Assembly (NCBI GenBank): GCA_009781855.1
Contig: WQUY01000018.1
Span: 1 to 37,822, forward strand
DNA: 37,822 nucleotides
From: Oscillospiraceae bacterium
Lineage (GTDB): Bacteria; Bacillota; Clostridia; Oscillospirales; Oscillospiraceae
Reading direction: 5' to 3'
Part shown: positions 1,606-21,656 of the stretch, one piece after another
Layout: every line of letters begins with the position of its first letter
Position numbering within the stretch: position 1 is the first letter of the stretch
Position numbers and translations under genes: made by a program
The notes under the pieces: model-generated
The model's database searches: none
Seen by the model: only the letters and a program-made list of their open reading frames with translations
Told to the model about the DNA's origin: nothing

Positions 1606-1681
1606 TAGTGCAATCAAAAATATGCCCAGCAGGAACAATAACATCAAAATTTAAAAGATGTTAAACAGGGAGGTTTACGGC

Positions 1682-4139: not shown

Positions 4140-4202
4140 GCCGTCACAAGAACCAACAAGAGGTAAACTTAGTGCAGTCTAGTTATTTTAAATGCGCTAT
4201 AC

Positions 4203-4237
4203 CAGGGGATGCGTAACAAAACGTTATGCATCCTCTG
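4203..4237 (+). other. 15-bp stem-loop upstream of the dehydrogenase operon
   Basis: Positions 4203-4217 pair with 4223-4237 (15 pairs, two of them G-U) with a 5-base loop. No T-run follows on the plus strand. It sits 63 bases after the stop of the acidic-repeat gene and 59 bases before the dehydrogenase start, so it could be a weak terminator of the former or a leader structure of the latter. Confidence 0.5.
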
Positions 4238-4296
4238 TCTGCTACAGTAATTATTTAATGCTGAAAACTAAAAATATACACAAGGGAGGATATTAT

Positions 4297-5358: not shown

Positions 5359-5382
5359 CGCCGGGAAGGAGTGTTTATCTCA

Positions 5383-7227: not shown

Positions 7228-7249
7228 TAAAAGCAGGGAGGACGAGACT

Positions 7250-8035
7250 ATGACAGAACCCATCAAGGAATTTTCTATGGATTTATTTAGCCTTAAAGGA
7301 AAAGTCGCGATAATCACCGGAGGCAATACAAATCTTGGTTTGGGATATTCAGTTGCCCTTGCTAAAGCCGGAGCGGATTTATTTATTGCACATTTTGAAG
7401 AAGATGTCTCAGAAGCAAAGCGTCTCATTGAAGCGGAGGGACGCAAGGTAAAGTTTTTGCGCGGAGACCTTTCAAGCAAGGACTATATCAACGCAATAGT
7501 CAAAGGATGTCTCGACGAATATGGAAAGATTGACATTTTAATCAATAATGCCGGTACAAATCATTTCGAGGATTTCAGGACTTTCCCAGACGAGAAATAT
7601 ACGCAAGTTATGGACATTAACCTCAATGCATGTTATTTCCTTGGAAATGAAGTTGCAAAAGTTATGGCCGACAATGGTGGTGGCAAAATAATCAACATAG
7701 GCTCTGTCCTATCATTTACAGCCGACATTATGTGTCCGGGTTACGCTGTTTCTAAACATGGTGTCATCGGACTCACACGTTACTTTGCAAACAATATGGG
7801 TAAGTACAATATCCAAACCAATGCGCTTTGTCCGGGCTTTATAAAGACCGAGATAAACGCTGATTTGAGTGACAATGTTGAATTTTACAATAAAATTACC
7901 AACCGTATTCCGGCGGGCCGCTGGGGTACCCCCGAAGACTTAGTTGGTACGGCGGTATTTCTTGCGAGTCGTGCCTCAGACTATCTAAACGGCTGGGCGA
8001 TATCTGTAGATGGCGGGTTTTCGACAACTTTGTAG
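7250..8035 (+). CDS. Short-chain dehydrogenase/reductase (SDR)
   Basis: Start at ATG 7250, preceded by AGGGAGG at 7 bases; a longer frame exists upstream but overlaps the transketolase gene. The 261-residue protein is a classical SDR: nucleotide motif TGGNTNLGLG near residues 20-29, NNAG near 97-100, catalytic Ser in GSVLSFTAD, and the Y-x-x-x-K pair in YAVSKHG, then PGFIKTE. It resembles gluconate 5-dehydrogenase and 2-deoxy-gluconate 3-dehydrogenase in length and ending (SVDGGFSTTL). It is last in the operon with the zinc dehydrogenase and transketolase, so two redox steps and one ketol transfer probably act in one carbohydrate pathway. Confidence 0.88.
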   Translation: MTEPIKEFSMDLFSLKGKVAIITGGNTNLGLGYSVALAKAGADLFIAHFEEDVSEAKRLIEAEGRKVKFLRGDLSSKDYINAIVKGCLDEYGKIDILINNAGTNHFEDFRTFPDEKYTQVMDINLNACYFLGNEVAKVMADNGGGKIINIGSVLSFTADIMCPGYAVSKHGVIGLTRYFANNMGKYNIQTNALCPGFIKTEINADLSDNVEFYNKITNRIPAGRWGTPEDLVGTAVFLASRASDYLNGWAISVDGGFSTTL

Positions 8036-8147: not shown

Positions 8148-9500
8148 CTACACCTCCGACTTCTTAGCAACAGCCTTAGTTTTCCACTTTCCGGTAAAAT
8201 ACCGAGCGCATAAAATCAAAGACACCACACCCCAACCCAGCGGCGTGGTCATCCATGCAGCACTATAACCAAGCACACCCAGATAAACAGCCAGATAACC
8301 CGTAGAAACACGTATAGCCAGCGCAATGAGCGTTGCCGCAGACTGCACAACAGTATCGCCGGCACCCTGCAACACCCCGCTGACCGTCATCTGCACAGCA
8401 AAAATCCAAACCCAAACAGACATAAACCGAACAATGCTGACACCAATCGGCAATGAATTGACTTCAAGCCCGAACACTGAAAGCAGTGTCCCGGCAAATA
8501 TATAAAACAGCACACTCACCACAGCAACAACACCTAAAGCCATTGCAAGAGTCACCCTAAAACCGCGCTTTACTCGGTCGAGCTGCTCTGCCCCGATATT
8601 TTGCCCAACAAAACTTGCAAGACCCGACTGGAAAGCCATGAGCGGCACAGCCAAAATCATATCCAACCTTGCAGCAGCAGTATATGCAGCCATAACTCCG
8701 GGAACGGTGCGCTCAAACCCATTAACAAGACGCTGCATCGCCCCATAACCAATTGAAACAAAGCTTATTTGAATTGCTACCGGAAGCCCAAGTTTTGTCA
8801 TGGTAAGGGCAATTTTCGCATCCCAATGAACGCCGGACTTCACAAAAGGGAATCGCTTTCTCATATATATGTATGAAACCACAGCGCACATAGCCTTAGC
8901 AATGAGCGTTGAAAACGCAGCCCCCGCAACACCCCATGGGATAACTACAATAAACAGAGGCGTAAGAATAGCGCTGAGTATCGTCGAAATCAGCAAGAAA
9001 TACAAAGTTGCTTTGGAATCGCCCACACTGCGCAGGATTGCCGCAACTGCGTTATACACGAATTGAAAAAACAAACCGATACTGTAAATACGAAAATAAG
9101 TGATGGAAAGAGATATCTTCTCCTCCGGCACACCGAGAATTTCCCTGAGCAAAAAAGGCGTGACAACGAAAGCGGTCATGCTGGTGAGCAGACCAAAAAA
9201 ACCGAGCAGAATAAGTGCAGTATCAATTGCCGAAGGCAGGCTGGATTCCTTTCCCGCGCCAAAATACTGAGAGATGACAACCCCAACACCGACAGAAAGC
9301 CCGGACGACACGCCCAAAAATAGAAACACCATAGACTGTGTCGTACCCACAGCGCCAAGGGCAAGCTCTCCGATTAAGTTTCCAACCAATATGCCATCAA
9401 CGATATTATATGTTTGTTGAAGCAGAAACCCGGCAAGAATAGGCAAGGTAAAGAGCAGAATCACCCTCCACTCTTTACCTTTTGTCATATCCTTTTTCAT
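8148..9500 (-). CDS. MATE-family multidrug/metabolite exporter
   Basis: The 450-residue integral membrane protein has about twelve hydrophobic segments and the family hallmark near the N-terminus, LPILAGFLLQQTYNIVDGIL, with the corresponding internal repeat in the second half (LPVAIQISFVSIGYGAMQRL). ATG 9500 is chosen over the GTG at 9509 because that GTG lies inside the AGGTGA ribosome binding site. MATE proteins export cationic or aromatic compounds using sodium or proton gradients. It follows the URO-D gene on the same strand but is separated from it by a terminator hairpin at 9524-9553. A functional link with the catabolic locus is possible but unproven. Confidence 0.9.
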   Translation of the reverse strand: MKKDMTKGKEWRVILLFTLPILAGFLLQQTYNIVDGILVGNLIGELALGAVGTTQSMVFLFLGVSSGLSVGVGVVISQYFGAGKESSLPSAIDTALILLGFFGLLTSMTAFVVTPFLLREILGVPEEKISLSITYFRIYSIGLFFQFVYNAVAAILRSVGDSKATLYFLLISTILSAILTPLFIVVIPWGVAGAAFSTLIAKAMCAVVSYIYMRKRFPFVKSGVHWDAKIALTMTKLGLPVAIQISFVSIGYGAMQRLVNGFERTVPGVMAAYTAAARLDMILAVPLMAFQSGLASFVGQNIGAEQLDRVKRGFRVTLAMALGVVAVVSVLFYIFAGTLLSVFGLEVNSLPIGVSIVRFMSVWVWIFAVQMTVSGVLQGAGDTVVQSAATLIALAIRVSTGYLAVYLGVLGYSAAWMTTPLGWGVVSLILCARYFTGKWKTKAVAKKSEV

Positions 9501-9523
9501 AGCGTTCACCTAAAAGCAAAAGG

Positions 9524-9553
9524 GGGGAGACTTATCTAACTTGAAGTCTCCCC
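9524..9553 (-). terminator. Rho-independent terminator downstream of the URO-D gene
   Basis: GGGGAGACTT at 9524-9533 pairs perfectly with AAGTCTCCCC at 9544-9553 with a 10-base loop. On the minus strand it is followed by CCTTTTGCTTTT, a good terminator tail, so it should end transcripts of the gene stopping at 9573. On the plus strand a TTGCTTTTT tail also exists. Confidence 0.75.
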
Positions 9554-9572
9554 TTGCTTTTTCCTTGTTATT

Positions 9573-10598
9573 CTACAACCCCTCGTAACACTTGCTGCTG
9601 TAATTAAACAACTCATCCTCAAAAGCAAAGTAGCTCTCAGGGATATTGCCGCTCAGCCGCACAACGATACCGGAACCCTTATGCTTGTGCGCCCCGAATC
9701 TGTCAACGAGACTGCGGGCATATTCTCGAGCCTGCTCAGCTGTGGTAGCAGGATTGTACATGATGTTAGGATCGGGCATGTATTCGACAGTCAATTTATC
9801 ACCATAGGTTTTGAGTATGCTGTCAACATCATTAATCGACTGAATCTCTATCAAATCAGCTTTCAGATCATTGACGATATATGGAAGCCAAGCCTCCATT
9901 TTGCCGCAAGTGTGGAACATTGTTCTTAGCCCCTGGGCACGAAACGCATCAAAGAGCCTAATCGTTGGTTCAAGCAGAGTCTCTTCAAAAAGTTCGCATT
10001 TGAAAAATTGACTCTTTGCATTAGACCAGTCATCATTATGACACACATAATCAAAGTTGTATACCTTTTGCTGCACATTTAAAAGATCGATTTTATAATC
10101 AACTAACCTGTTAAAGAAAGCGGCGCATTCTTCGGTTTCGACTAATAAATCATACAAACATTGCTCAAAACCTTCTAGAAAATGCAGTTGCTCGAATGTA
10201 CCATGGCCGAGACTGCGACATGCCAGTGCAAGATTTTTTTCTCTCTTGAAATGCTCATAACCCTCTGCCCAATCAAAATCATGCACATCAGGCCAGCGGA
10301 TATTGCGCCATGCACCAATTTCTTTCATTGGATAAGGTTTTATCGGTGTGACACCCTCCTGGAGCGGTTCATATCTATAACATGTGCCAAACCAATCTAC
10401 ACTGTCTCTAGCGCGATCATGTGCAACCCAGGAATAAGCTCTCGGAACAGCCCATTGGGTGGACTTGTACAAGCAAGGCATCCACAAGGGTTTTTCGTGG
10501 CGAAATGTTCTGAGCAGGTTTTCGCCCTCGGTTATTGGATAATCACGCTTTACGCTTTCCATCGGCGGTGGGAATACAGGAATCATAAAATCAGCCAT
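9573..10598 (-). CDS. URO-D-fold protein, methyltransferase-like, with HxCG metal motif
   Basis: The 341-residue product belongs to the uroporphyrinogen decarboxylase/MtaA superfamily (TIM barrel). It keeps the H229-x-C231-G motif (FHTCGKMEAW) that binds zinc in cobalamin-dependent methyltransferases such as MtaA and MtbA. It shares a HNDDW motif (187-191) with the URO-D-like protein at 12283 (HHDDW). It lacks the N-terminal RxPVWxMRQAGR signature of true heme-pathway HemE, so a haem role is unlikely. ATG 10598 has GGAGGT 9 bases upstream. The gene follows the dehydratase-subunit gene after 36 bases and is probably co-transcribed. Function is uncertain: methyl transfer from a methylated substrate is the leading idea, but no corrinoid protein is encoded nearby. 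Confidence 0.78.
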   Translation of the reverse strand: MADFMIPVFPPPMESVKRDYPITEGENLLRTFRHEKPLWMPCLYKSTQWAVPRAYSWVAHDRARDSVDWFGTCYRYEPLQEGVTPIKPYPMKEIGAWRNIRWPDVHDFDWAEGYEHFKREKNLALACRSLGHGTFEQLHFLEGFEQCLYDLLVETEECAAFFNRLVDYKIDLLNVQQKVYNFDYVCHNDDWSNAKSQFFKCELFEETLLEPTIRLFDAFRAQGLRTMFHTCGKMEAWLPYIVNDLKADLIEIQSINDVDSILKTYGDKLTVEYMPDPNIMYNPATTAEQAREYARSLVDRFGAHKHKGSGIVVRLSGNIPESYFAFEDELFNYSSKCYEGL

Positions 10599-10634
10599 TA
10601 ATAATTTACCTCCGCAAATATTTTTGTTTTATTT

Positions 10635-11948
10635 CTATTCAAGCATCTGTAGTCCGAGGCTCTCCATCCATGTGTCGAGTTGTTCAAGAAAACGCTTCTC
10701 GTCAAAATCCACACGGTCGCCAGGTTGTGCGCCCTCGTAACATAATACACTGTATCCGGCTTCGCGCAAGTACATGGCTTGCTCTTTACGCAAAAGTGTA
10801 CAGCCGACACCGGCACGCCACATGCCAAACAAAGCGCCGTCGGCATCAAATACATCGGCAAACTCATTGAGCGCTTTGGGGCGTATATATTCGTCAATCT
10901 TGAAGTGGTGTGGGAACCGCGCGTCAGGGCCGGTCATAAACCTTACGGCATCCTCACGTGTATTGAGTTCCATGGTGTCGGAATATACAGGATAATCACG
11001 ATCGCCTATGCTGCCATCGGGCTTTCTTTCGAGCTGTGACTGGGAGTGGTGGGTATATTGTGAGCCCAAACATACTGCACCGTATTGCTCCATGTAACGA
11101 TAATATTTGAGAAAATGCCATGAAGGTGGATGCGCCTCAATCCAGCGGAAGCGTTCAGTGCCAACAGCCGCTATTTTGTTTTGTACGCGCCACTCAACCT
11201 CATCACGAACAGTTTTCCAGAACTTGACAGAAAGCTCCGGCCCTATTTTTGCCAAACTTCCAAGTTGGAAAAACGAGTATAAATCCTTTACGGATAGTGG
11301 TGAGGGCGTAAAAGTCATGAAATAACTAACATCCTGCCTGTACTCTTTCAGCAGGCGGCAATTGCGGGCAAGCTCAAAGAGTGTTTCGTCGTCGAGCTTT
11401 TGGCCGAACACAGTTTCCATTTCATTGAGCATCTTCAGCGAATTGAAATTCCTGTGGTCAAGCATTGCGGCCTCTCTGGCCTCATCGCGCTCGCCAATAT
11501 ACATGGTAAAGTCATTAGTCCATCTGGAAATAGGCTTGAAGTCACGGCATTGCTGCCCGCGTTTTATATGGGAGTCACACACACAAGGAAATGGTACTGT
11601 AAAATGCCTTTCGGGAAACGGCTTGCCATCTGATGTGTGGCCTAGAAACTGCGCCCCCCAGCATGTGTTGTGATAGCCGCAAATCTCACGACCCCAGCCC
11701 CTGACCTCACTCGCAAGCCTCGCTTTGCGCGCAAAAGGCTCATCCTGAGCAGCCATCATTGCACCTACCGGATTATCTTCAATGACCTTGATCGCCGGAA
11801 ACGCGACTTGCCAATCCAGTGTGAAGCTGGTGTTGCCCTGGCCGAGGACACTTTCCTTTCCGGCAATGCCCTTGTCGTAGTTTTTCCTGATTTCCTTTGC
11901 AAGCGTCCAACATTCAAGCGGTTTGGTTTCCCACAGTTGGTTTTTCAT
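10635..11948 (-). CDS. 2-Hydroxyacyl-CoA dehydratase / benzoyl-CoA reductase family subunit (HgdA/BcrB-like)
   Basis: The 437-residue protein shows the D-family layout. A first cysteine region is EICGYHNTCWGAQFLG (C90, C96), then PFPCVCDSHIKRGQQC (C122, C124, C134), and a late cysteine is at GVGCTLL (C383). The C-terminus has the family pattern LCYEGAQPGDRVDFDEKRF. These cysteines are candidates for the [4Fe-4S] or double-cubane cluster ligands. Length fits the larger catalytic subunit (HgdA, BcrB or BzdO). ATG 11948 follows AGAGGTGA at 7 bases. Its partner, the HgdB/BcrC-like subunit, is encoded on the opposite strand at 14210, so the two catalytic subunits are made from divergent transcripts. 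The reaction is probably ATP-dependent one-electron reduction of a CoA thioester, leading to dehydration or ring/double-bond reduction. Confidence 0.82.
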   Translation of the reverse strand: MKNQLWETKPLECWTLAKEIRKNYDKGIAGKESVLGQGNTSFTLDWQVAFPAIKVIEDNPVGAMMAAQDEPFARKARLASEVRGWGREICGYHNTCWGAQFLGHTSDGKPFPERHFTVPFPCVCDSHIKRGQQCRDFKPISRWTNDFTMYIGERDEAREAAMLDHRNFNSLKMLNEMETVFGQKLDDETLFELARNCRLLKEYRQDVSYFMTFTPSPLSVKDLYSFFQLGSLAKIGPELSVKFWKTVRDEVEWRVQNKIAAVGTERFRWIEAHPPSWHFLKYYRYMEQYGAVCLGSQYTHHSQSQLERKPDGSIGDRDYPVYSDTMELNTREDAVRFMTGPDARFPHHFKIDEYIRPKALNEFADVFDADGALFGMWRAGVGCTLLRKEQAMYLREAGYSVLCYEGAQPGDRVDFDEKRFLEQLDTWMESLGLQMLE

Positions 11949-12282
11949 AACACATTCACCTCTTAGCTGGCGGGAGCCGAACTCCCATCGGTTTGAGACA
12001 AGGCGGGACGCTGCTTTGCTTAAACACGTCCCATCCGTTTGTTGCTTCTTTTGTATAACATCTAAAACTACTCAGAATATGTCTTTTGCGTGTTCAGACA
12101 TTCATACAACGAATAAGATACACTAACCAATTGAAAGTTACATTATGCCTTTAGCACAATAATTACATAAAAAATCTGGTCTGATGTCACATCGCATTGA
12201 ATAAGCAACTCTGATAGAATCGGAATGATTTTGGTGGTAATTGTCAGGATAAGAGGCTTTTGTAAAAGGAAGGGTCATAAGT
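11949..12282. other. Divergent intergenic region of the reductase locus
   Basis: These 334 bases separate the minus-strand reductase-subunit gene from the plus-strand URO-D operon and should hold both promoters and any operator. The half next to the minus-strand gene contains two related GC-rich hairpins (11969-12040). The middle and plus-proximal half (12041-12270) is AT-rich. I could not find a convincing -35/-10 pair for either direction, so both promoters may be activator-dependent. No coding sequence is evident. Confidence 0.6.
11969..12040 (-). other. Two tandem related hairpins in the leader of the reductase-subunit gene
   Basis: On the minus strand the sequence reads AAAC-G-GATGGGACG, a 16-base loop, CGTCCCGCC (12040-12002), then 7 bases, then AAAC-C-GATGGGAG, a 5-base loop, CTCCCGCC (11994-11969). 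The two units share AAAC(G/C)GATGGGA at the 5' side and TCCCGCC at the 3' side, while the loops differ. They would lie about 20 to 90 bases before the ATG at 11948. Whether they act as RNA leader structure or as DNA-binding sites cannot be told. Confidence 0.5.
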
Positions 12283-13266
12283 ATGCTTACAAAGAAACAA
12301 AACCTGCTGGAAACGCTGCGAGGTGGAAGCCCCGACCGGTTTGTAAATCAGTTTGAAGCTTTCGGATTTGTGGCAGACCCACATATGAAAAGGTCAAGAG
12401 GTATGCAACCGGGCACAGAGATGGTCAACGCTTGGGGCGTTACAATCCGATTCATTGAAGATACCCCCGGCCCATTTCCTGTGCACGATGAGCAGCATAC
12501 AGTACTCAAAGATATTACCCAATGGCGCGAGACCGTCACTTTTCCAAATCTTGATTTTTCAAAAGAGCAGTGGGATGAATGTCGTGCTGTGGGCAGCCAG
12601 ATAGATAGAAATGATAAATTTGCGACCTGCATGATTGTGCCCGGAGTTTTTGACCATCTGCATTACCTGATGGGTATGGATGCGGCGCTTATAAGCTTCT
12701 ATGAAGAGCCGGAAGCGCTTAAAGAGCTGATAGAAGCCATCACATTATGGGAACTTGAATATGCGAAGTTGCTTTGCGAAAACCTGCAGCCCGAAGCGCT
12801 GTTGCATCATGATGACTGGGGCAGCCAAATTTCGACATTTCTGTCACCTGATATGTTTGATGAGTTTATCTTCCCATCATATAAAAGGATATACGGCTAT
12901 TATAAAGACAATGGAGTAAAAGTCATTGTGCATCACAGCGATTCATATGCAGCGACGATTGTGCCGCACATGATAGAGGCCGGGATAGATATATGGCAAG
13001 GCTGTATAGATACAAACAACATCCCGGAACTGATAGAACAATACGGCGAAAAAATAACTTTCATGGGTGGAATCAACAACGGCATTGCAGATGTTCCGAA
13101 CTGGACGGAATCGCTTATCTCAGATGTTGTTGAAAAGACATGCCGGCAGTGTGGGAAATTATACTTTATACCAGGGCTGACAGCAGGCGGCCCATCAAGC
13201 ACATATCCCGGCGTATATGACACGGTTACACGTGAGATAGATCGCATGAGCAAAATTATGTTTTGA
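12283..13266 (+). CDS. URO-D-fold protein with HHSD motif
   Basis: A 327-residue member of the uroporphyrinogen decarboxylase-like superfamily. The HHDDWGSQ motif is at 175-182 and SPDMFDEFIFPSYKRI at 188-203. A VHHSDS motif at 216-221 stands where the methyltransferases of the family have the zinc-binding HxC; here the cysteine position is serine, as in a sizeable URO-D-like subgroup with HSDG-type motifs. It therefore probably does not bind zinc in the MtaA way. AAGGAAGGG precedes ATG 12283. It is first in the plus-strand operon, 42 bases before the activator ATPase gene. It differs clearly from the URO-D protein at 9573, so the two could form a heteromer or act on different steps. Specific function unknown. 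Confidence 0.75.
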   Translation: MLTKKQNLLETLRGGSPDRFVNQFEAFGFVADPHMKRSRGMQPGTEMVNAWGVTIRFIEDTPGPFPVHDEQHTVLKDITQWRETVTFPNLDFSKEQWDECRAVGSQIDRNDKFATCMIVPGVFDHLHYLMGMDAALISFYEEPEALKELIEAITLWELEYAKLLCENLQPEALLHHDDWGSQISTFLSPDMFDEFIFPSYKRIYGYYKDNGVKVIVHHSDSYAATIVPHMIEAGIDIWQGCIDTNNIPELIEQYGEKITFMGGINNGIADVPNWTESLISDVVEKTCRQCGKLYFIPGLTAGGPSSTYPGVYDTVTREIDRMSKIMF

Positions 13267-13308
13267 TTGCAGGCATTTGATATTTGCCATGGCTAAGGAG
13301 GCTTAAAA

Positions 13309-14193
13309 ATGGTTAAGGAATATGGAAAATGGCCGGAATTCTCGCAGGTTTCAAAAGAGATAGACTGGAAAGGTGCAAAGCTTATTGCAGCAGGCGTTGA
13401 TGTTGGAACAACAAGCGCACAGGCGGCGATACTATGCGATGGCAAGCTGTTTGGGTATGCAAATATCCATGCGGGCGTTGACTTTGAAAAAACGGCAAAA
13501 GACGTTATAGCATTAGCTATGGAAGGTTCCGGTATGGCGGCAAAGGACATCGGCATCATCAGTGCAACGGGGTTTGCAAAGAAAAACGTAAAATTTGCCT
13601 CGAAAACATTTGATGAGATACATTGCCATGCAAAAGGTGCACGATTCATGTTTGGGCCGGAAGTGCGCACAGTTGTGGACATGGGCGGCCAGACAGTAAA
13701 AGCAATAAGGCTTTTTGAGTGGGATCGTGTGCGCGACTTTATGCTCAATGACAAATGCGCCACAGGTTCGGGCAGAAACATTGAGGTGTTATGTGCGCAA
13801 TTGCATCAGGATATCACTGAAATAGGCTCGAAGTCTTTGGAGACAGAAAAAGACCCTGAGCCTGTCAGCACAACCTGCTGGGCATTTGCAGGAACAGAGA
13901 CACTCGGGCTATTCGGAAGGCCTGAGTACCGCAGTGAAAAACTAAGCGAAGCCGAAATTTACGCGTCGCATTTGTTTGCTATAGCGTGGAGAGTTATTGG
14001 CATCATAGGCAGGTTATCGCCTTTGGATGTGGGAGAGATCAGTGTAGATGGCGGTCTGGCATTTACCGGTGGGCTTGCAAAAAACCCCGGAATAACTGCC
14101 CGCATTGAGCGTGAGCTAGGTGTTGCTGCCGCTAAGAGTGATATTGATCCAATGCTTGCCGGTGCGATTGGCGCGGCGTTGCTGAGTGTATGA
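13309..14193 (+). CDS. HgdC/BcrA-type ATP-dependent activator, complete motif set
   Basis: This 294-residue protein is an ASKHA-fold ATPase of the BadF/BadG/BcrA/BcrD/HgdC family. Visible motifs are the phosphate-1 loop DVGTTS (31-36), the phosphate-2 motif DMGGQTVK (124-131), the cysteine motif NDKCATGSGRNIE with C150, and the second cluster cysteine C190 in STTCWAFAGTE. In HgdC the two cysteines of each monomer jointly hold one [4Fe-4S] cluster at the dimer interface. ATP hydrolysis there drives an electron into the dehydratase/reductase. About 25 residues precede the first motif, more than in many homologs. ATG 13309 has AAGGAGG upstream at 8 bases. The stop is 16 bases before the next start. 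Confidence 0.88.
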   Translation: MVKEYGKWPEFSQVSKEIDWKGAKLIAAGVDVGTTSAQAAILCDGKLFGYANIHAGVDFEKTAKDVIALAMEGSGMAAKDIGIISATGFAKKNVKFASKTFDEIHCHAKGARFMFGPEVRTVVDMGGQTVKAIRLFEWDRVRDFMLNDKCATGSGRNIEVLCAQLHQDITEIGSKSLETEKDPEPVSTTCWAFAGTETLGLFGRPEYRSEKLSEAEIYASHLFAIAWRVIGIIGRLSPLDVGEISVDGGLAFTGGLAKNPGITARIERELGVAAAKSDIDPMLAGAIGAALLSV

Positions 14194-14209
14194 AAAGGGG
14201 GTAGAGGTT

Positions 14210-15352
14210 ATGGACTTTAAGAAGCTGATTGCAGAGCGGCACGAATATGCACAAAAATGGAAAGAACGCACAGGCGGCAAAGTGCTGGGTTGGTTTGAGC
14301 CGTACTTCCCCGAAGAAATCGCATATGCTGCCGGAGTATTGCCTGTAAGAATAATAGCGCAGCACGAACCGGACGCGCTCAGTGACAAATGGATATACGG
14401 TGCATGTTACCCAGTCAAAGATATGACAAATCAGTTTTTGCTGGGCAGGATGGACTACATAGATGGATTGGTTAACGTTGAGGGTTGCCAATGGATTTTC
14501 AATGCGTATGAAGTCATAACAAATAATAAGCCCGACATGTTCAAGCACTATCTGTTTTTGCCCGACTACACAGAATCAAAAACCTCAAAAGATGTTCTGA
14601 AATCTGAACTTCTGGTGTTTAAGACCAAGCTTGAAGAGTGGACAGGCAATAAAATCACTGATGCAGCACTTGATAATGCGATAGATATTTATAACAAAAA
14701 CCGCACCTTACTCAGAAGAATTTGCGAACTCAGGCGTGCTGATAACCCCGTGATACTCGGCTCAGAATACATGGATATGCTGCTTGCCAATCAGGTAATG
14801 GACAAAGCACAAATGAATGGTATTTTGGAAAAATTCATAGAAGAACTCGAAAGTCGTGAGCCGGGCAAGGATATGATTAGACTGATGCTCATCGGCAGCG
14901 AGACTTGGGACAGCAACCTTGAAAAATTGATAGAATCATTGGGTGGAAATGTGGTTATAGACGAACTGGATAATGGGACATCCTATTTCTGGGATAATAT
15001 TTTCCCGCAAAAAGACAGGATGATGGCCGTTGGATTGCGTTACCTCGGACGACCGCGTCAGCCAATCAAAGAGAGCAACTGGAGAAGGCGGCCTGCGCAT
15101 ATTGCGGCTCTTGCTGAGGATTATCACATAGACGGAGCAATTATCGCAAAGCAAATCTATTGCCACCCGCACGGCACCGACAACTACGAAGTATGGAAGT
15201 TATTAAGGGAGCGCAATATTCCCTATCACTATTTTGAACGTGATATGTTTGTTCCGAATGACGAAACGACACTCAGGGTAGAAGCATTTCTGAATACAGT
15301 TCGTGCCGGGATTACACGTCTTGCAGGCTGGCACAACACGGTAGAGATATAG
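14210..15352 (+). CDS. 2-Hydroxyacyl-CoA dehydratase / benzoyl-CoA reductase family subunit (HgdB/BcrC-like)
   Basis: The 380-residue protein opens with the family signature GWFEPYFPEEIAYAAGVLPV (residues 27-46). It carries three conserved cysteines suited to be cluster ligands: C66 (YGACYPVKDM), C93 (VEGCQWI) and C318 (KQIYCHPHGTDNYE). The last motif resembles the CDPHE-type motif of BcrC-like subunits. The end shows the usual IPYHYFERD strand and amphipathic helix. Length fits HgdB and BcrC/BzdN (about 380). ATG 14210 is chosen for AGGGGGT 7 bases upstream; an in-frame codon at 14186 overlaps the preceding gene. It lies between two activator-type ATPase genes, an arrangement that fits one multi-subunit enzyme. 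Confidence 0.87.
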   Translation: MDFKKLIAERHEYAQKWKERTGGKVLGWFEPYFPEEIAYAAGVLPVRIIAQHEPDALSDKWIYGACYPVKDMTNQFLLGRMDYIDGLVNVEGCQWIFNAYEVITNNKPDMFKHYLFLPDYTESKTSKDVLKSELLVFKTKLEEWTGNKITDAALDNAIDIYNKNRTLLRRICELRRADNPVILGSEYMDMLLANQVMDKAQMNGILEKFIEELESREPGKDMIRLMLIGSETWDSNLEKLIESLGGNVVIDELDNGTSYFWDNIFPQKDRMMAVGLRYLGRPRQPIKESNWRRRPAHIAALAEDYHIDGAIIAKQIYCHPHGTDNYEVWKLLRERNIPYHYFERDMFVPNDETTLRVEAFLNTVRAGITRLAGWHNTVEI

Positions 15353-15364
15353 GGAGCGAAGAAC

Positions 15365-16135
15365 ATGATTATTGCTGGAATAGATGTAGGTGTTGAAAAC
15401 ACAAAAGTCGTAATAATTGACGATAAGAAAGTGGTCGGCTGTGCGGCTGTATCCACCGGAGGTGTAGAGCGCCCTACGCAGATAAGAAAAGCATATGAGA
15501 TGGCGCTTAGCGCAGCGGGCATCAGCGAAAAAGACGTAGGGGCAGTCATTGCCACAGGCAGAGGCAAGTTCGATGTCGATTTTGTGAGTGGCAGAGTCAC
15601 AGAGACCATAGCTGCAACATTTGCCGCACGGTTTTTATATCCGGACGCAACCTCTGTTATGAGTGTGGGTGCAGATGAAACGCTTGCTGCGACCATCGGC
15701 AAAGAGCGTCTGGTTGGCGAATACGTTGCAAACCAAAAATGCACCGCTGCACTGGGCACATTTTTGAAATTTCTCGCAAAACGGCTGGGTGTTGCACTCG
15801 AAGAATGTAAGCCCGAGGCAAAAGATGCCGGAGAAATAAACGAGGGTTGTGTCGTGTTTTCGGAGCTTGATGCACTCAGTCTTATAAATGACGGAGCAAA
15901 GCCTGAGGCGGTCATGGCATCGGCAATCAATGCTACAGCCATCCGAGCAGCAACGGTTATGAATGACTTAACAATTCCGAAAAATGAGCGGCCGATTTTG
16001 ATAGGGGGACTTGCAAAAAATGCGGCATTTGTGAGTGCTTTGGAAAAAGTATTGGGATTTAAGTTTATAATACCTGAAAATCCGGAATTTTGCGGTGCGA
16101 TTGGGGCAGCGGTCAGTGGTGGCAAAGTAGCGTAA
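15365..16135 (+). CDS. Second HgdC/BcrD-type ATPase, divergent phosphate-2 motif
   Basis: A 256-residue member of the same ASKHA activator family, shorter than the 13309 protein and clearly different from it. The phosphate-1 motif is DVGVEN (7-12). Where the family has DxGGQ it has SVGADE (100-105). The two cluster cysteines are retained: C126 in NQKCTAALGTFL and C162 in NEGCVVFSELD. The adenosine motif GGLAKN (214-219) is present. The pattern suggests a subunit that still helps hold the [4Fe-4S] cluster but may bind or hydrolyse ATP differently. Benzoyl-CoA reductases have two such non-identical ATPase subunits (BcrA/BcrD, BzdP/BzdQ), whereas simple dehydratases use a homodimer. AGGGAG precedes ATG 15365; the gap from the previous gene is 12 bases. 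Confidence 0.85.
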   Translation: MIIAGIDVGVENTKVVIIDDKKVVGCAAVSTGGVERPTQIRKAYEMALSAAGISEKDVGAVIATGRGKFDVDFVSGRVTETIAATFAARFLYPDATSVMSVGADETLAATIGKERLVGEYVANQKCTAALGTFLKFLAKRLGVALEECKPEAKDAGEINEGCVVFSELDALSLINDGAKPEAVMASAINATAIRAATVMNDLTIPKNERPILIGGLAKNAAFVSALEKVLGFKFIIPENPEFCGAIGAAVSGGKVA

Positions 16136-16168
16136 AACCACCGCTTACTTAAAAACGGAGGGAAACGA

Positions 16169-17737
16169 ATGAAAATCAATAAAATAATGAGCATTGAAGC
16201 GGCGCTCGATTTGATAAAAGACGGAGATACGGTTGCGATTTCATCTGCAAGCATGGTTGGATATCCTGATTATATAGTCAAATGCTTAGAAGATAGATAT
16301 ATTGAAACAAAGCATCCGGCGGCGCTGACGCTTTATGCGGGTTGTGGGCACGGAAACCCCGTCGGATATGGGGCGGATGACAGATTTGCGCATCCGGGTT
16401 TTTTGAAGCGTACGGTTTGCACCCATCCCCAAGTGGTTCCGAAACTTGGCAAATTTATCGACTCCGGGGAAATTGAAGCCTATGCATTCCCGCAGGGCGT
16501 TGTCAACCACTTGTACAGGTGCAGTGCAGCAAAGCAGCCGGGTCTTTTAACAAAAATAGGCATCGGAACATATTGTGACCCGCGTCAAGATGGCGGTAAG
16601 CTGAACAGTGCAACAACAGAAAATCTTGTTGAAGTTATGGTTGTTGACGGTGAAGAATATTTGTTTTACAAAAGCAAGCCCATAGATGTTGCGATTTTGA
16701 GGGGTACAACTGCCGATGAGCGGGGCAATATCACCATTGAGCATGAATCACTTAAACTGGAGATTCTTGAAATAGCGCTTGCAGCAAAATCATCCGGCGG
16801 TAAGGTCATAGTTCAGGCAAAAAGAACGGCTGCCGAAGGTTCGCTCAATGCAAAGGATGTTGTTGTTCCCGGAGAGCTTGTAGATGCTGTTGTGGTCTGT
16901 GAAGACGTGGAGCAATACCACCGCCAAACAGCCGGGACAGTGTATAGCCCATATATGAGCGGTGAGCTGAAGTGCCCGGCAGGAGCAGTGTCTGTACCCA
17001 AGGAAGTTTTGGAAGCTGATGATATTGTATGCCGCAGGGCGGTATCTGAAATATACCGTGATGCGGTGATTAATGTAGGCGTAGGCATCGGTGTTGGTGT
17101 CGGTGCTGTAGCTGATGTTGAAGGAATCATAAATGATGTGACATTCACACTGGAGCTTGGGGTTTTTGGAGGCACACCGCAGGCGATGCCGGATTTTGGC
17201 GCGGCAATCAATGCCACCTCATACCTTTCACACCCATCCATGTTTGATTATTACCACAGCGGTGGGCTTGATATTGCGTTTCTGGGGGCTGCGCAAATAG
17301 ATGCTGAGGGCAACGTAAATGTCAGCCGTTTCGGTGGGCGTGCCGCAGGGCAAGGGGGCTTTATCGATATAAGCCAAACGGCCAAAAAAGTTGTGTTTTG
17401 TACATACTTTAAAGCAAAAGGTTTTGAATCCTCGATTAGTGACGGAAAGCTTAACATCACAAACGAGGGCAAAGTGCCCAAATTTGTCGAGAAAGTTGAT
17501 CAAATAACATTTTGCGGAAAGCGCTCCAGAGCAAAGGGGCAAGAGGTGGTTATCTGCACTGAGCGATGTGTTTTTGAGCTTGTAGAACAGGGAGTTATGT
17601 TGACCGAAATCGCACCGGGCATAGATCTTGAAAAAGACATTTTAGCAAATATGGGATTTAAGCCCATCATAAGCAAAGCGCTGAAAGTAATGGATCAAAG
17701 AATCTTTATACCGGGACGCATGGGTTGCTTTGATTAA
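16169..17737 (+). CDS. Family I CoA-transferase (acetate/propionate CoA-transferase-like)
   Basis: The 522-residue protein has both halves of the family I CoA-transferases in one chain. The first half is MSIEAALDLIKDGDTVAISS to GTTADERGNI. The second half has the active-site glutamate in TLELGVFGG (E329), the residue that forms the glutamyl-CoA intermediate in propionate CoA-transferase. The GGFIDISQTAKKVVFCTYF segment is also characteristic. The expected job is to move CoA from acetyl-CoA or another acyl-CoA onto a carboxylic acid, here presumably the substrate of the reductase encoded next to it. CGGAGGG lies before ATG 16169, and the gene follows the second activator after 33 bases, so it belongs to the same operon. 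Acceptor specificity is not readable. Confidence 0.9.
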   Translation: MKINKIMSIEAALDLIKDGDTVAISSASMVGYPDYIVKCLEDRYIETKHPAALTLYAGCGHGNPVGYGADDRFAHPGFLKRTVCTHPQVVPKLGKFIDSGEIEAYAFPQGVVNHLYRCSAAKQPGLLTKIGIGTYCDPRQDGGKLNSATTENLVEVMVVDGEEYLFYKSKPIDVAILRGTTADERGNITIEHESLKLEILEIALAAKSSGGKVIVQAKRTAAEGSLNAKDVVVPGELVDAVVVCEDVEQYHRQTAGTVYSPYMSGELKCPAGAVSVPKEVLEADDIVCRRAVSEIYRDAVINVGVGIGVGVGAVADVEGIINDVTFTLELGVFGGTPQAMPDFGAAINATSYLSHPSMFDYYHSGGLDIAFLGAAQIDAEGNVNVSRFGGRAAGQGGFIDISQTAKKVVFCTYFKAKGFESSISDGKLNITNEGKVPKFVEKVDQITFCGKRSRAKGQEVVICTERCVFELVEQGVMLTEIAPGIDLEKDILANMGFKPIISKALKVMDQRIFIPGRMGCFD

Positions 17738-17769
17738 ATAGACATCAAAAACTTGGGGAGACAGTTGAG

Positions 17770-19752
17770 ATGGAATATAGAAAATATATTGCTGATAAAC
17801 TGCCAATGAAGTGGCCGTACCCAATTGCATACGACAAAGAAACAAGGGAAAACTGTGATGTCTTGATTATAGGTGGGGGGCTTGCAGGTGCGTTTGCAGC
17901 CATAACTGCTGCAAAAAGAGGTGCGCGTGTTGTTGTTCTTGACAAAGGAGCAATAGTCCGCAGCGGTGCTGCCGGTGTTGGGATAGACCACTGGGGAGGA
18001 GTGCATACAGCGCCGGGTTCAAAATACGCACCGGACGAAGTGATTAGAGCGCCATCCAGAGACAATTATGCTCCGGGTCATACCAAGTATATTGCGATAA
18101 AAGAAGCGTATGATGCGCTGCTGGAACTAGAAGAGTACGGCCTGAAAATCCGCGATGAAGATGATGAATTTCTGGGAGCGCCATTTCGTGATGACGAAAC
18201 GAAGCTCATGTTTGCATACGACTATGAAAGCAAGCATACAATACGCATCCCCGGCGGGGAACAAATAAAGGTTGTATTATATAACCAAATGAAACGCCTG
18301 GGTATCAAGATGTATGACAGGGTACATACCACTTCGCTCCTCACAAAAGACGCAGCAAGAGGTGCGCGTGTGGTTGGGGCGACCGGTGTAAACATCAGAA
18401 CCGGTGAGTTCTATGTGATGAGCGCAAAAACAACAATACTCTCCACAGGTTGTCCGCTCAGACTATGGGAATTTGCGACAGAACTGGTAGGCTCGAATGC
18501 GCATCACGATGACCCAAACTGCGCAGGCGACGGAAATGTCCTGGCATGGCGTGCCGGAGCGCAACTGATGATGATGGATAAAAGCCATTCAAGTTCCGGA
18601 GGGCGCAGATACCCGGCATATATGACAGCAAATGCCGACAACACGTGGAGACCATGCACAATAGTGGATGCCGATGGAAAAGAAATCCCATGGCAGAATC
18701 GTGATGGAGTTATTTGCGAGACATTTGACGATAGAAATAAGCTTGCTTCTGGGCAAAAGATGATGGCAAGCGGTGGCCAGAGATCACCATATGAACTGCG
18801 TACACCCACTATTATTTACGATTTGAAAGAGCGTATAGAGTCTGGTGAGTACAAACTTCCGTTTTATGCGGATATGACGCAAATGCCTGATGATGAGCGG
18901 CGTGTTCTGTTTGGTGTTATGCTTGGGAACGAAGGAAAGACCAGAGTTCCGGTTTTAGAAACGTTGCAAAATGCAGGATTCGACCCGGAGCAAGATATGC
19001 TTCAGGCCAATGTTCTGCCTCCTCAATATATGGGCACCGATGAGCCTTGGTGGGATGTGAAATCCCCCGGCATAGGAGGACACAATATACGTGACACGGC
19101 GTTTATAGGATATGGCGGTCTTGTAGTTGACTGGAACATGAGATGTTCGCTGGAGGGACTATATGCTGCCGGAAACCAAGTGGCAGGCGTGACAGGAGCA
19201 CCCTCTGCTGCTGCGACAGGCAGATATGCAGCACGCAACGCAGTGGAATATGCAAAGACGGCAGAGCAGTTCCCTGTGTCGGAAGCGCAAGTGGCCTATG
19301 AAAAACAAAGGGTATTGTCTTTTGTGAATCGGGATAAGGGCTATGGCTGGAAAGAAGTTCAGTTGGGACTTTGCAGAATAATGCAGGATTACTGTGGGGA
19401 CTACAGAAGCAAAGAAGTCATGGAAATGGGTCTGTGGTGGTTAAATTCCATTCGTGAAAACGAATTGGCAAACACCGTGGCATCCAATCCCCACGACTTA
19501 GGAAAAGTATTAGATGTTGATACCAGGCTGGCAATTGGCGAAATTATGTTGCATCAGTCTCTGAGCCGTGAATTTTCAAGCAAATCCATGGGTGTTGTCA
19601 GACTTGATTTCCCAAAAGACGGCGATGATTGCGGATACTACCAAACACTCAATCTCAAAGGTGACGAAATCGAAGTGGGCAAGCTGCCTTTTAACTACTG
19701 GCTGGAAAATGGAGATTACAACGAAGCCTACGAAAAAAACTGTTGCTTGTAA
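17770..19752 (+). CDS. FAD-dependent oxidoreductase, fumarate-reductase/AprA-like flavoprotein
   Basis: The 660-residue protein has a dinucleotide-binding motif GGGLAGAFAA at 35-44, ending with D58 (VVVLDKG). The flavin-contact stretch AIVRSGAAGVGIDHWGG follows, then the ATGR-type motif ILSTGCP, and GLYAAGNQVAGVTGAPSAAATGRYA as the second FAD-binding element. Architecture and a long C-terminal helical domain with a tail ending in NYWLENGDYNEAYEK place it near succinate dehydrogenase/fumarate reductase and adenylylsulfate reductase alpha (AprA). No signal peptide is present, so it is cytoplasmic. The ferredoxin gene 10 bases downstream is its likely electron partner, as AprB is for AprA. Sulfate reduction is not implied, since no other genes of that pathway are present. 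A role in reducing an enoyl or keto intermediate, or feeding the activator, is inferred. Confidence 0.83.
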   Translation: MEYRKYIADKLPMKWPYPIAYDKETRENCDVLIIGGGLAGAFAAITAAKRGARVVVLDKGAIVRSGAAGVGIDHWGGVHTAPGSKYAPDEVIRAPSRDNYAPGHTKYIAIKEAYDALLELEEYGLKIRDEDDEFLGAPFRDDETKLMFAYDYESKHTIRIPGGEQIKVVLYNQMKRLGIKMYDRVHTTSLLTKDAARGARVVGATGVNIRTGEFYVMSAKTTILSTGCPLRLWEFATELVGSNAHHDDPNCAGDGNVLAWRAGAQLMMMDKSHSSSGGRRYPAYMTANADNTWRPCTIVDADGKEIPWQNRDGVICETFDDRNKLASGQKMMASGGQRSPYELRTPTIIYDLKERIESGEYKLPFYADMTQMPDDERRVLFGVMLGNEGKTRVPVLETLQNAGFDPEQDMLQANVLPPQYMGTDEPWWDVKSPGIGGHNIRDTAFIGYGGLVVDWNMRCSLEGLYAAGNQVAGVTGAPSAAATGRYAARNAVEYAKTAEQFPVSEAQVAYEKQRVLSFVNRDKGYGWKEVQLGLCRIMQDYCGDYRSKEVMEMGLWWLNSIRENELANTVASNPHDLGKVLDVDTRLAIGEIMLHQSLSREFSSKSMGVVRLDFPKDGDDCGYYQTLNLKGDEIEVGKLPFNYWLENGDYNEAYEKNCCL

Positions 19753-19762
19753 AGGAGTCATG

Positions 19763-20077
19763 ATGCTTATGGGTAATGCGTATTTTTTGCCGAGCCCGGC
19801 AGCGCCGAATGAGTGCGTGACATTCGATGAAAGCAAATGCATTGGCTGCAATATATGCGTAGATGTTTGTCGCTGTGATGTGATGCTCCCGAATCCGCAG
19901 TGTGGAAAACCGCCAATCGTTACATATCCGGACGAATGCTGGTTTTGCGGCGCATGTGTCTCAGATTGTCCGATAGAAGGTGCAAATAGACTCAACCACC
20001 CGATAAACCAGCGCATAACATGGAAAAGAAAAGCTACCGGAGAAATATTCAGAGTCAAATACTGTTATATGAAATAA
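19763..20077 (+). CDS. Two-cluster [4Fe-4S] ferredoxin-type subunit (AprB-like)
   Basis: Start placed at ATG 19763, with AAAGGAG 5 bases upstream; ATG codons at 19760 and 19769 in the same frame are alternatives. The 104-residue protein carries two CxxCxxCxxxC motifs: C26-C29-C32-C36 and C59-C62-C65-C69P. A Pro/Asn-rich spacer separates them, with extra cysteines C38 and C47, and a basic C-terminal tail follows (ITWKRKATGEIFRVKY). Size and layout resemble the small iron-sulfur subunit partnering AprA-type flavoproteins. It is last in the plus-strand operon and converges with the PucR-type regulator gene, leaving 19 bases with no visible terminator. Confidence 0.87.
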   Translation: MLMGNAYFLPSPAAPNECVTFDESKCIGCNICVDVCRCDVMLPNPQCGKPPIVTYPDECWFCGACVSDCPIEGANRLNHPINQRITWKRKATGEIFRVKYCYMK

Positions 20078-20096: not shown

Positions 20097-21656
20097 CTAT
20101 TTGAAGAGCGTTCGCACAATAATACAGGATAACAGAATGCCCAATCGCTCATCAGGATCATTTAAATCCATTTCAACAATTTTTTCTATGCATTTTAGCC
20201 TATAGGTCATTGTGTTTTTGTGAATATACAATTGAGATGCGGTTTTGATTAGAGAATTGTTGTTCATCAGATAAGCTTCGAGTGTAGATAAAAAAGTTGT
20301 TCCATTTGTGACATCGTAGTTATTAAGACGGACAACAGCGCTGTTGCAAACAGTTTTTATGGGAAACACAGAGTCTAGAGTGTTTATGATATGTGCAGGC
20401 ATAATATCTCTATAGTAACGTATGCGCTTTTCGTTCGGCCCCTGTTTTATCGGCAAAACAGTCAAATCAAAATGGCTGGCAAGTTGTGAGAACTCGCAAA
20501 ACAAATTGCCGATGCTACAAAAACCATTATCAAGCTCCAACTGCTGCTCAATAAGTTCAAGTTGATGGTCAGTGATTTTGCAAGCTTCTCCGTGAAGCAA
20601 AAAAACAATGAGGTCATTATAATTGAGTGCGATGCAATCAAAATAGGATGTTGCGAAAATACGCTCATAATTATACAAATAATGACTTACATTATGACAT
20701 TCAGGAGGCAGTGAGACCAGCATAAGCCTATAATCATCGTCCGAACTCCACCGCAGCTGAGCAAGCACATCCTTTGCAGTGTTAAACATATTTCTACCAT
20801 TTTTTCTTGCAAGGTGCAGTGCAGTTGTGAGCGCATTTCTGGCATTGTTGCGCACATTCAGTGATGAATTATACCTTCTGGTTATTACCGGTGAAATGAG
20901 GTCGGCAATATAATCAACAAGCCAGTGCTGATTTGAAGTAAGGCTCTTATTAACACCCATTACAATCAGTGAAGCAAAACGCAAATCCCCATAATCAAAT
21001 GCCGTGACAAAATGCGGCTCAAAGTTATTCACTGATTCATGAAAAGTAGATTTAGGATATTTTTCAGGATTTTTAGGCAGAATTTTAGCTTTTTCCCTCG
21101 GATTCCGTTCAAAAGCAATTCGATTTTGTGTCTGAACTTCATTCCAAAAGACATTTGATTCAGGCGGCACAAAATTATCGCTGTGATCCAGCAGCAGGAA
21201 ACCAGAACTATATGAATTAAAGAGCATGATACAACCTTCAAAAAATTCGGCACAGCAATTCAAAATAGTTCGAGTAGATGCGTCGCCCAGCATGACGTTA
21301 AGCAGCTCATGTTCAAATGCTTCGAATTTACGGAAAACCAGCTGAAGTGCGTTTAAAACAATCAGCATATCCGCACAATCAGGAAAAATGATTCCTGAAA
21401 TATCATGCTTTTTAAAGAAGTCACGGGCTTTTTCGCCCCCACCTATACAGGAGACAAACCGTGGAAGCGACACCTTAATACCAGAAAGCGTTTTCCATGA
21501 TGTCACATAAAGAATATCCTCATCAAATTTACTGCCTGTAAAAAGAGGAACAGCGCAGCCTAGTGACATTATAGCATCCGGCTCTCCGATAAGAGCCTCA
21601 TGCTGAACAAAACCTGTTGGTAATGAATCTATTAAAAGTCCCAGATTCAGCTTCAT
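20097..21656 (-). CDS. PucR/CdaR-type transcriptional regulator
   Basis: The 519-residue protein ends with a PucR C-terminal helix-turn-helix: TFLSTLEAYLMNNNSLIKTA then SQLYIHKNTMTYRLKCIEKI. The N-terminal part (about 1-150) resembles a ligand-sensing region of purine-catabolism-type regulators, and the middle (about 230-400) a GGDEF-like/CdaR central region. PucR-family proteins usually activate catabolic operons on binding a substrate or intermediate. ATG 21656 has GGAGGG 8 bases upstream. The gene is placed between the reductase operon (convergent) and the ABC importer operon (divergent), so it probably controls one or both. Its own promoter overlaps an inverted repeat, suggesting autoregulation. 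Confidence 0.85.
   Translation of the reverse strand: MKLNLGLLIDSLPTGFVQHEALIGEPDAIMSLGCAVPLFTGSKFDEDILYVTSWKTLSGIKVSLPRFVSCIGGGEKARDFFKKHDISGIIFPDCADMLIVLNALQLVFRKFEAFEHELLNVMLGDASTRTILNCCAEFFEGCIMLFNSYSSGFLLLDHSDNFVPPESNVFWNEVQTQNRIAFERNPREKAKILPKNPEKYPKSTFHESVNNFEPHFVTAFDYGDLRFASLIVMGVNKSLTSNQHWLVDYIADLISPVITRRYNSSLNVRNNARNALTTALHLARKNGRNMFNTAKDVLAQLRWSSDDDYRLMLVSLPPECHNVSHYLYNYERIFATSYFDCIALNYNDLIVFLLHGEACKITDHQLELIEQQLELDNGFCSIGNLFCEFSQLASHFDLTVLPIKQGPNEKRIRYYRDIMPAHIINTLDSVFPIKTVCNSAVVRLNNYDVTNGTTFLSTLEAYLMNNNSLIKTASQLYIHKNTMTYRLKCIEKIVEMDLNDPDERLGILLSCIIVRTLFK

Follow-up and report, generated by a model that had tools for sequence, protein, structure and literature searches.

The 37,822-nt contig WQUY01000018.1 of an Oscillospiraceae bacterium (assembly GCA_009781855.1), referred to below as the window, was analysed with a focus on the locus at positions 9573-20077. 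Judged from its predicted gene products, this locus encodes a multi-subunit, two-ATPase enzyme with the architecture of a class I benzoyl-coenzyme A (CoA) reductase, and the class I benzoyl-CoA reductase/2-hydroxyacyl-CoA dehydratase superfamily is, by sequence, the home of this four-subunit (O-N-P-Q) enzyme. All of the genes named in a first-pass annotation of this DNA were found where it had placed them; they are listed here together with the adjoining features.

9573-10598, minus strand: UroD1, a URO-D-superfamily protein, downstream of O (PF01208, 2.8e-7; predicted UROD fold)
10635-11948, minus strand: O, the BzdO-like catalytic HGD-D subunit, 437 aa (Pfam HGD-D, 1.3e-12; TIGR03191 bzdO, 1.2e-47, below cut-off)
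11949-12282, no strand: divergent intergenic gap of 334 bp between the O-UroD1 and UroD2-Q-N-P transcripts (from the coordinates of the open reading frames, ORFs)
12283-13266, plus strand: UroD2, a second URO-D-superfamily protein and first gene of the plus transcript (PF01208, 3.8e-15; PRK06252/MtaA-type models below cut-off)
13309-14193, plus strand: Q, a BzdQ-like ATPase/electron activator subunit (PF01869, 8.8e-34; TIGR03192 bzdQ, 4.8e-70, below cut-off; MbdQ 9gai, 5.3e-39)
14210-15352, plus strand: N, a BzdN-like HGD-D subunit (PF06050, 2.5e-60; TIGR03190 bzdN, 1.1e-69, below cut-off)
15365-16135, plus strand: P, the second ATPase/electron activator subunit (PF01869, 5.7e-27; TIGR00241, a general activase model, 6.7e-44, over cut-off)
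16169-17737, plus strand: a fused family I CoA-transferase (PF01144, 6.7e-30)
17770-19752, plus strand: an AprA/FrdA-like FAD flavoprotein (PF00890, 1.3e-28; nearest solved chain PAPS reductase alpha 8a8o, 1.9e-24)
19769-20077, plus strand: an AprB-like ferredoxin carrying two [4Fe-4S] motifs, which pairs with the flavoprotein and is likely the electron donor (Fer4, 2.6e-9)
20097-21656, minus strand: a PucR-type regulator adjoining the cluster, in which it presumably has a role (HTH_30, 5.3e-18)
4192-8035, plus strand: an upstream operon of a zinc alcohol dehydrogenase (ADH; IolM/Tdh-like), transketolase N and C subunits and a KduD-like short-chain dehydrogenase/reductase (SDR)

O and UroD1 thus diverge from the UroD2-Q-N-P-CoA-transferase-flavoprotein-ferredoxin series. 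The ORF of N spans 14186-15352 with an ATG at 14210, and that of the ferredoxin spans 19568-20077, its likely start at 19769 being assigned from the spacing of a preceding GGAG. No further HGD-D gene over the cut-off was found in the genome to which the window belongs (G000, 92% complete). The two ATPases and the two HGD-D subunits make up one Q-N-O-P set, as in class I benzoyl-CoA reductases of the Bzd type, and this subunit set bears out the earlier view of a multi-subunit, two-ATPase, low-potential CoA-thioester enzyme.

Among the NCBIfam models, the best ones were BzdQ for Q (236.3 bits vs a curated cut-off of 380.2), BzdN for N (235.0 vs 453.8) and BzdO for O (163.1 vs 448.6), all below their cut-offs, and P exceeded the cut-off of the general activase model only. 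The models for the Bcr-type enzyme of Thauera aromatica also stayed below their cut-offs (BcrA 77.1 vs 578, BcrC 83.8 vs 421.15 and BcrD 82.6 vs 312.85 bits), the BcrC score being far under that with the BzdN model. The model for a double-cubane-cluster protein (DCCP; NF040772) likewise stayed below its cut-off (137.7 vs 350 bits), the characteristic cysteines also being lost; instead of the single homodimeric activator of 2-hydroxyacyl-CoA dehydratases, two different ATPases are present both in the window and in 19 of 23 relative loci; and the flavoprotein reached no named AprAB/FrdA equivalog, its best model being PRK08275 (189.3 vs 587 bits). Several features that define the benzoyl-CoA reductase family are missing, and the complex is better not assigned to that family.

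When solved proteins were searched, O alone matched BzdO (Protein Data Bank 8s02) at 1.6e-43 and HadB at 1.1e-6, and N matched BzdN at 1.1e-78 and HadC at 6.3e-31. The figure for O alone is the fair one, as the match of a profile (A2) of five clade O and three Bzd-group sequences to BzdO is stronger than the clade alone gives. The AlphaFold model of O, with a mean predicted local distance difference test score (pLDDT) of 76, had BzdO 8s02 as its nearest structure at a template modelling (TM) score of 0.75; the pLDDT falls below 50 at residues 60-68, 124-144 and 379-385, which contain or border active-site positions, so the model supports the fold and not the cluster geometry. The activator cysteines are kept in all aligned sequences of both ATPases (Cys150 and Cys190 in 24/24 for Q, Cys126 and Cys162 in 20/20 for P). 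As both ATPases retain these two cysteines, the "composite" locus with two activators described in the first-pass annotation gives way to a single class-I-type complex of which the activators are the P and Q subunits, and electron delivery probably works as in class I benzoyl-CoA reductases.

A scan with an N alignment over one genome per species yielded 50 loci. At 20 of these (two partial), the identity to the window N was at least 55%; a 69-residue end fragment (L089) showed 52%, and the other 29 did not exceed 44%. In maximum-likelihood trees, 22 N rows and 25 O rows formed clades of their own with 100/100 support each, adjoining the BzdN and BzdO groups on stems of 0.9 (N) and 2.0 (O) changes per site, with an identity to Bzd-group proteins of about 40% in N and 30% in O. 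Neither subunit branched inside the Bzd clade, and neither grouped with HadC or HadB, which, like the other outer rows, lay on long branches, the exact place of HadC and HadB being unsure; support was lower at the node where the clade meets the Bzd group (89/79 for N, 91/74 for O). The characterised members covered by the trees were BzdN, MbdN, HadC and a DCCP for N, and BzdO and HadB for O, and it is relative to these that the clades stand apart; BcrBC, HgdAB and FldBC, with which the first-pass annotation had also proposed to compare the catalytic subunits, were left out. Its suggestion that the enzyme may be undescribed stands on the separate clades, on the conserved core neighbourhood described below and on a search of the literature for such an enzyme or locus, in which no description was found. 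The clade is apparently an undescribed branch of a known superfamily, with substrates that are probably other than benzoate.

The distribution of the clade is sparse and scattered. Same-clade N occurs in 2 of 300 genomes of the Genome Taxonomy Database (GTDB) family and in none of five other genomes of the window's genus; O was found in 1 of 197 genomes of the order, and same-clade O proteins in 2 of 398 genomes of a phylum sample. The cassette is an accessory trait and probably a mobile one. Seven loci come from four genomes of the Nt197 and Th196 series, which were obtained from gut samples of two humus feeders, the termites Neocapritermes taracua and Termes hospes (PMC7024585). One further locus (L085) is from roe deer rectum, and L054 and L056 belong to Chloroflexota. 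The Gx485 and Po218 genomes we take to be from termite samples too.

To describe the conserved neighbourhood, 23 relative loci from 14 genomes were compared. The quartet is complete in 19 of them, usually in the order Q-N-O-P, with N-O-P-Q in two Chloroflexota and Q-N-P-O in L200; of the remaining four, L055, L057 and L083 are cut or broken at N, and L036 holds a lone O. The window is unusual in that O lies on the opposite strand in a divergent transcript. A homologue of the fused CoA-transferase, with 57-75% identity, accompanies 8 of the 23 relative loci (one being a contig-end fragment). In the survey of the family, CoA-transferases of at least 60% identity occurred, among the matches listed, in 3 of 300 genomes (G000, G652 and G698), and the only two genomes with same-clade N, G000 and G652, both carry one (Fisher p = 7e-5). 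The quartet in 19 loci and the co-occurrence of the CoA-transferase with N indicate that the genes are not together merely by chance. As the first-pass annotation had expected, conservation extends over the core neighbourhood, and of the accessory genes the CoA-transferase shows the best link to the cassette. Homologues of the flavoprotein with at least 39% identity were found in 6 of the other 14 cassette genomes. At L083, a flavoprotein-ferredoxin pair (58% and 76%), with the ferredoxin directly behind the flavoprotein, lies about 7 kb before Q, and a second pair (ferredoxin 50%, flavoprotein 39%) follows about 4 kb after the first, directly before Q.

Additionally, the catalytic subunits are expanded in some genomes. 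O matches numbered 16 in G591, a 2.0-Mb termite-gut genome (12 nearly covering the whole model), 13 in G402 (12) and 8 in G592 (7), also from termite gut, and same-clade N genes numbered 6 in G591, 8 in G402 (one with an in-frame stop) and 6 plus a fragment in G592. O genes clearly outnumber N genes in G591 and G402, and these extra O genes without an N of their own suggest interchangeable O subunits that would be served by a shared N-P-Q.

The structural work on BzdNO provides the reference for the active site: the catalytic [4Fe-4S]-OH2 cluster is bound by Cys95, Cys128 and Cys380, Glu65 and His131 form an acid/base pair, the ring pocket consists of Trp46, Leu302, Leu383 and Tyr97, the thioester oxygen is bound by Tyr97, Tyr298 and Gln274, and BzdN holds a double cubane, [8Fe-9S] (PMC11971306). 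These residues were mapped, in BzdO numbering, on aligned O proteins, 25 from the clade and 25 from the Bzd core; for the O alignment, which did not include MbdO, and for the cysteine table of N, identical copies and hits covering less than about 330 query residues were left out. Cys95, Cys128, His131, Tyr97 and Tyr298 are kept in 25/25 clade and 25/25 Bzd proteins, and this retention of the thioester-binding tyrosines and their companions makes a CoA thioester a likely substrate. The window O has Cys90, Cys124, Cys383 and His127, with Asn59 in place of Glu65. The Trp46 position falls in a gapped loop in the clade, in which a Trp a few residues on is invariant (20/20), and loss of Trp46 is not claimed; the alignment at Gln274 is ambiguous. 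An extra clade Cys122 was considered as a fourth ligand, as it was present in the first five clade sequences, and was dropped after being found in only 16/20 overall.

In N, six positions, which are presumably the double-cubane ligands, are Cys in 32/32 Bzd-like rows (L079 and 31 from the sister group) and in the DCCP. In the 22 clade rows, the equivalents of Cys 73, 100 and 327 are kept throughout, and Cys 36 is lost in all 22, Cys 263 in 20 and Cys 293 in 19; the window N accordingly has a cluster site of three cysteines (C74, C101, C326) and lacks Cys at the remaining positions. The Chloroflexota proteins of L054 and L056 keep both 263 and 293, as expected of intermediates, and that of L050 keeps 293 alone.

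As for the two URO-D proteins, PF01208 is over the cut-off in both, and the model of UroD1 matched UROD (1jpi) at 1.6e-9, UROD chains coming first and CdmB being absent from the 50 rows shown. A profile of 11 URO-D proteins (UroD1, UroD2 and nine more from these genomes) had CdmB (9rui) as its best solved match at 3.3e-12; this match is remote, covering the C-terminal part only (profile positions 200-338 of 344). The relatives of CdmB include the O-demethylases MtvB, OdmB and VdmB (PMC13222342). UroD1 is described as a candidate corrinoid methyltransferase (MT1) of the O-demethylase type, and the URO-D genes are possibly O-demethylase methyltransferases in general; that UroD1 and UroD2, as proposed in the first-pass annotation, both act on one substrate can be presumed only. 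The further components of such a system are present in G000, where a PF02607 corrinoid protein, a methyltetrahydrofolate (CH3-H4F):corrinoid methyltransferase and FolD-, FchA- and Fhs-type genes lie together on contig C83. The PF02607 gene, the single one in this genome, thus lies on a contig other than the window's, and with 10 URO-D matches plus UroD1 next to one corrinoid protein, the arrangement looks like many methyl-donor enzymes feeding one corrinoid carrier. One O gene of G591 stands among URO-D, methyltransferase and corrinoid genes. The mlp clusters were considered as a known home of these URO-D genes and rejected; benzoyl, dehydratase, CoA-transferase and flavoprotein are absent from the main text of the paper describing them (PMC10418091). 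Note that a trio of MATE transporter, URO-D and O genes recurs at L186 (2432-6265) and in the window (8148-11948), the two MATE proteins sharing only 23% identity.

The ring-opening hydrolase Oah (TIGR03200) was found over the cut-off in 0/14 clade genomes and in 3/5 comparison genomes, with weak matches below the cut-off in 13 of the 14, and this absence argues against benzoyl-CoA itself as the substrate. The neighbours of other cassettes, chosen by eye, point in two directions. A UbiD/VdcC-like decarboxylase (L085) and a benzoate-CoA-ligase-family protein (L141), both below cut-off, and aldehyde oxidoreductases near L042 (over cut-off) and L187 (below) suggest aromatic acids. At the same time, homologues of some of the upstream ADH-transketolase-SDR genes, which the first-pass annotation had left out, adjoin Q-N-O-P elsewhere (ADH 53%, transketolase N subunit 43% and C subunit 34% at L200; ADH 54% at L195; SDR 66% at L043), and these, together with aldolase neighbours, suggest sugar-like acids.

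The reading that we tentatively favour, at slightly below an even chance, is that of an ATP-driven reductase for the CoA thioesters of methoxylated or hydroxylated plant acids, acting on them in O-demethylated form and forming a separate clade that adjoins the Bzd reductases. The fused CoA-transferase would convert a plant-derived carboxylic acid into its CoA thioester, and reduced ferredoxin, probably together with the flavoprotein, would load the cluster between the ASKHA ATPases P and Q. ATP hydrolysis would then drive single electrons first into the one cluster of N and from there into the three-Cys cluster of O, where the thioester-bound ring or oxygenated acid would be reduced. The URO-D corrinoid methyltransferases would strip O-methyl groups from the same compound, with the methyl groups passing to a shared corrinoid protein and to folate enzymes encoded elsewhere in the genome. 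Here we infer the substrate class (methoxylated/hydroxylated aromatic acids), reduction as the direction of the chemistry, the cluster contents and the role of the URO-D proteins as demethylases. A bolder proposal, which we put forward as doubtful, is that ATP-driven "Birch-type" enzymes have a third branch here: a single N-P-Q module would serve interchangeable O subunits and would be coupled to corrinoid O-demethylation, allowing gut anaerobes to degrade methoxylated, hydroxylated lignin-derived acids reductively without benzoyl-CoA, a double cubane or Oah.

Several observations weigh against the favoured reading. In O, position 65 is Glu in 25/25 Bzd proteins and Asn in 25/25 clade proteins, position 380 is Cys in 25/25 Bzd proteins and Gly in 25/25 clade proteins, whose Cys comes three residues on at 383, and position 302 is Leu in 25/25 Bzd proteins and in 0/25 clade proteins. 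The thioester end of the predicted pocket is conserved and its ring end is rebuilt, so that dearomatisation cannot be assumed; moreover, N has lost, as in dehydratases, the double-cubane cysteines that serve as an electron store in BzdN. The genes upstream of the locus look sugar- or cyclitol-like, and HpaI-like and class II aldolases flank other cassettes. Neither UroD1 alone nor UroD2 alone (at E up to 1) has a solved relative by sequence, the URO-D matches per clade genome range from 0 to 19 with none in 2/14 genomes, and the flavoprotein occurs in 2/23 relative loci only. URO-D genes, searched with a hidden Markov model profile built from nine proteins of these genomes, were found in 6/23 relative loci, and their enrichment near the 48 O genes was weak: 5 within 3 kb vs at most 2.0 expected (p about 0.05), 6 within 6 kb vs 3.5 (p about 0.14) and 12 within 10 kb vs 5.3 (p about 0.008), with p values of about 0.14 (3 kb) and 0.02 (10 kb) when the window is left out. 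This proximity test included the window UroD1, added by hand, and left out three URO-D rows under the cut-off, the O fragment of G599 and all of G652. Neither the URO-D genes nor the flavoprotein is a fixed partner of the cassette, and in this respect the first-pass interpretation was not borne out as it stood; the URO-D genes are kept as a loose link.

The main rival, unlikely in our view and yet to be taken seriously, is an enzyme of the 2-hydroxyacyl-CoA dehydratase type, in which the electron is recycled and the CoA thioester of an oxygenated acid (a sugar acid, cyclitol acid or hydroxy acid) loses water. The single three-Cys site of N without double-cubane cysteines, as in HadC and MbdN, agrees with it, as do the ADH/transketolase/KduD-like genes beside the window cassette, the ADH or transketolase homologues at L195 and L200 and the aldolases near other cassettes. 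However, O and N match BzdO and BzdN far better than HadB and HadC, the fold ranking agrees with this, and two different ATPases are present here, whereas characterised dehydratases use one homodimeric activator; in addition, a Glu aligned between BzdO and HadB is Asn in the clade (in another alignment the HadB Glu is shifted by one residue). A conventional reductase for benzoyl-CoA or 3-methylbenzoyl-CoA that supplies the known cyclohexadienoyl-CoA pathway would agree with Bzd as the nearest named models and structures, but the distribution of Oah, on which the benzoyl-CoA pathway was rejected as the leading explanation, the changes at Glu65, Cys380, Leu302 and the double-cubane cysteines, and the separate clade already disfavour it and leave it very improbable. 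We regard as scarcely probable, too, a low-potential reductase that would maintain Co(I) in the corrinoid proteins of the URO-D methyltransferase system and would not act on a CoA thioester: corrinoid reactivation is ATP-dependent and, in G591 and G402, O genes have corrinoid and URO-D genes as neighbours, but the thioester-binding tyrosines are present in 25/25 O proteins, the CoA-transferase is linked to the cassette, and of the 48 O genes only 2 have a corrinoid gene within 3 kb (p about 0.09), 3 within 6 kb (p about 0.06) and 4 within 10 kb (p about 0.05).

Class I benzoyl-CoA reductases, which are known from pathways of the benzoate type, reach redox potentials close to the biological limit. 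BzdNOPQ of Aromatoleum sp. CIB (8S02, 8S1T, 8S2R; PMC11971306) is the nearest relative of the favoured CoA-thioester reductase in sequence and fold, sharing O, N and two ATPases, the activator cysteines and the retained cysteine, histidine and tyrosine positions of O; the clade differs from it in the substituted O residues, in the lost double-cubane cysteines of N, in genomes without an over-cut-off Oah and in the Q-N-O-P order with a CoA-transferase in many loci. The 3-methylbenzoyl-CoA reductase MbdONPQ of Thauera chlorobenzoica (9GAI, 9G87) likewise has four subunits, two ATPases and an N without the extra double-cubane cysteines, but its N and O are much more distant, and the loss of the cysteines looks independent. 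(R)-2-hydroxyisocaproyl-CoA dehydratase, HadBC with its activator (3O3M, 4EHT), belongs to the same superfamily and is more distant in sequence and fold; we take it to have one activator type, not two. It also has no double cubane (PMC11971306). CdmB, whose relatives are MtvB, OdmB and VdmB among others, resembles the URO-D proteins only through the pooled profile.

The clade keeps an ATP-driven four-subunit machine, but the residue proposed as proton donor, the third cluster ligand in its usual place, the cysteines of the double cubane and the known hydrolase acting downstream are missing, which makes it a natural experiment on the parts that the chemistry requires. A route of "sub-cluster loss" has been proposed in the BzdNO paper (PMC11971306), and the Chloroflexota members that retain some of the lost cysteines would be intermediates for it. 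If the substrates are lignin-derived acids, the cassette would represent a testable route of anaerobic aromatic breakdown in termite guts.

Some minor observations were made in the course of this analysis. Within the window, ORFs of 495 and 276 aa at 1658-3145 and 3309-4139 matched nothing in Pfam at 0.001 or in NCBIfam at 1e-15. A glycyl radical enzyme of the PFL2/3 family (below cut-off) adjoins an O-P-O arrangement at L191 (3882-9364). Outside the clade, Bzd-like N proteins occur in Asgard, Bathyarchaeota and Archaeoglobales loci, including L061, L064, L067-L069, L072-L074, L076 and L084, and the O proteins recovered from these loci have Glu65, the three cluster cysteines and His131; in L060, L065 and L079, which represent additional Bzd-like lineages, the alignment shows no equivalent of Glu65 or His131. 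Finally, four genomes of the genus g375 (G604, G762, G810 and G850) carry 5-6 HGD-D paralogues each at about 30% identity, some with an in-frame stop.

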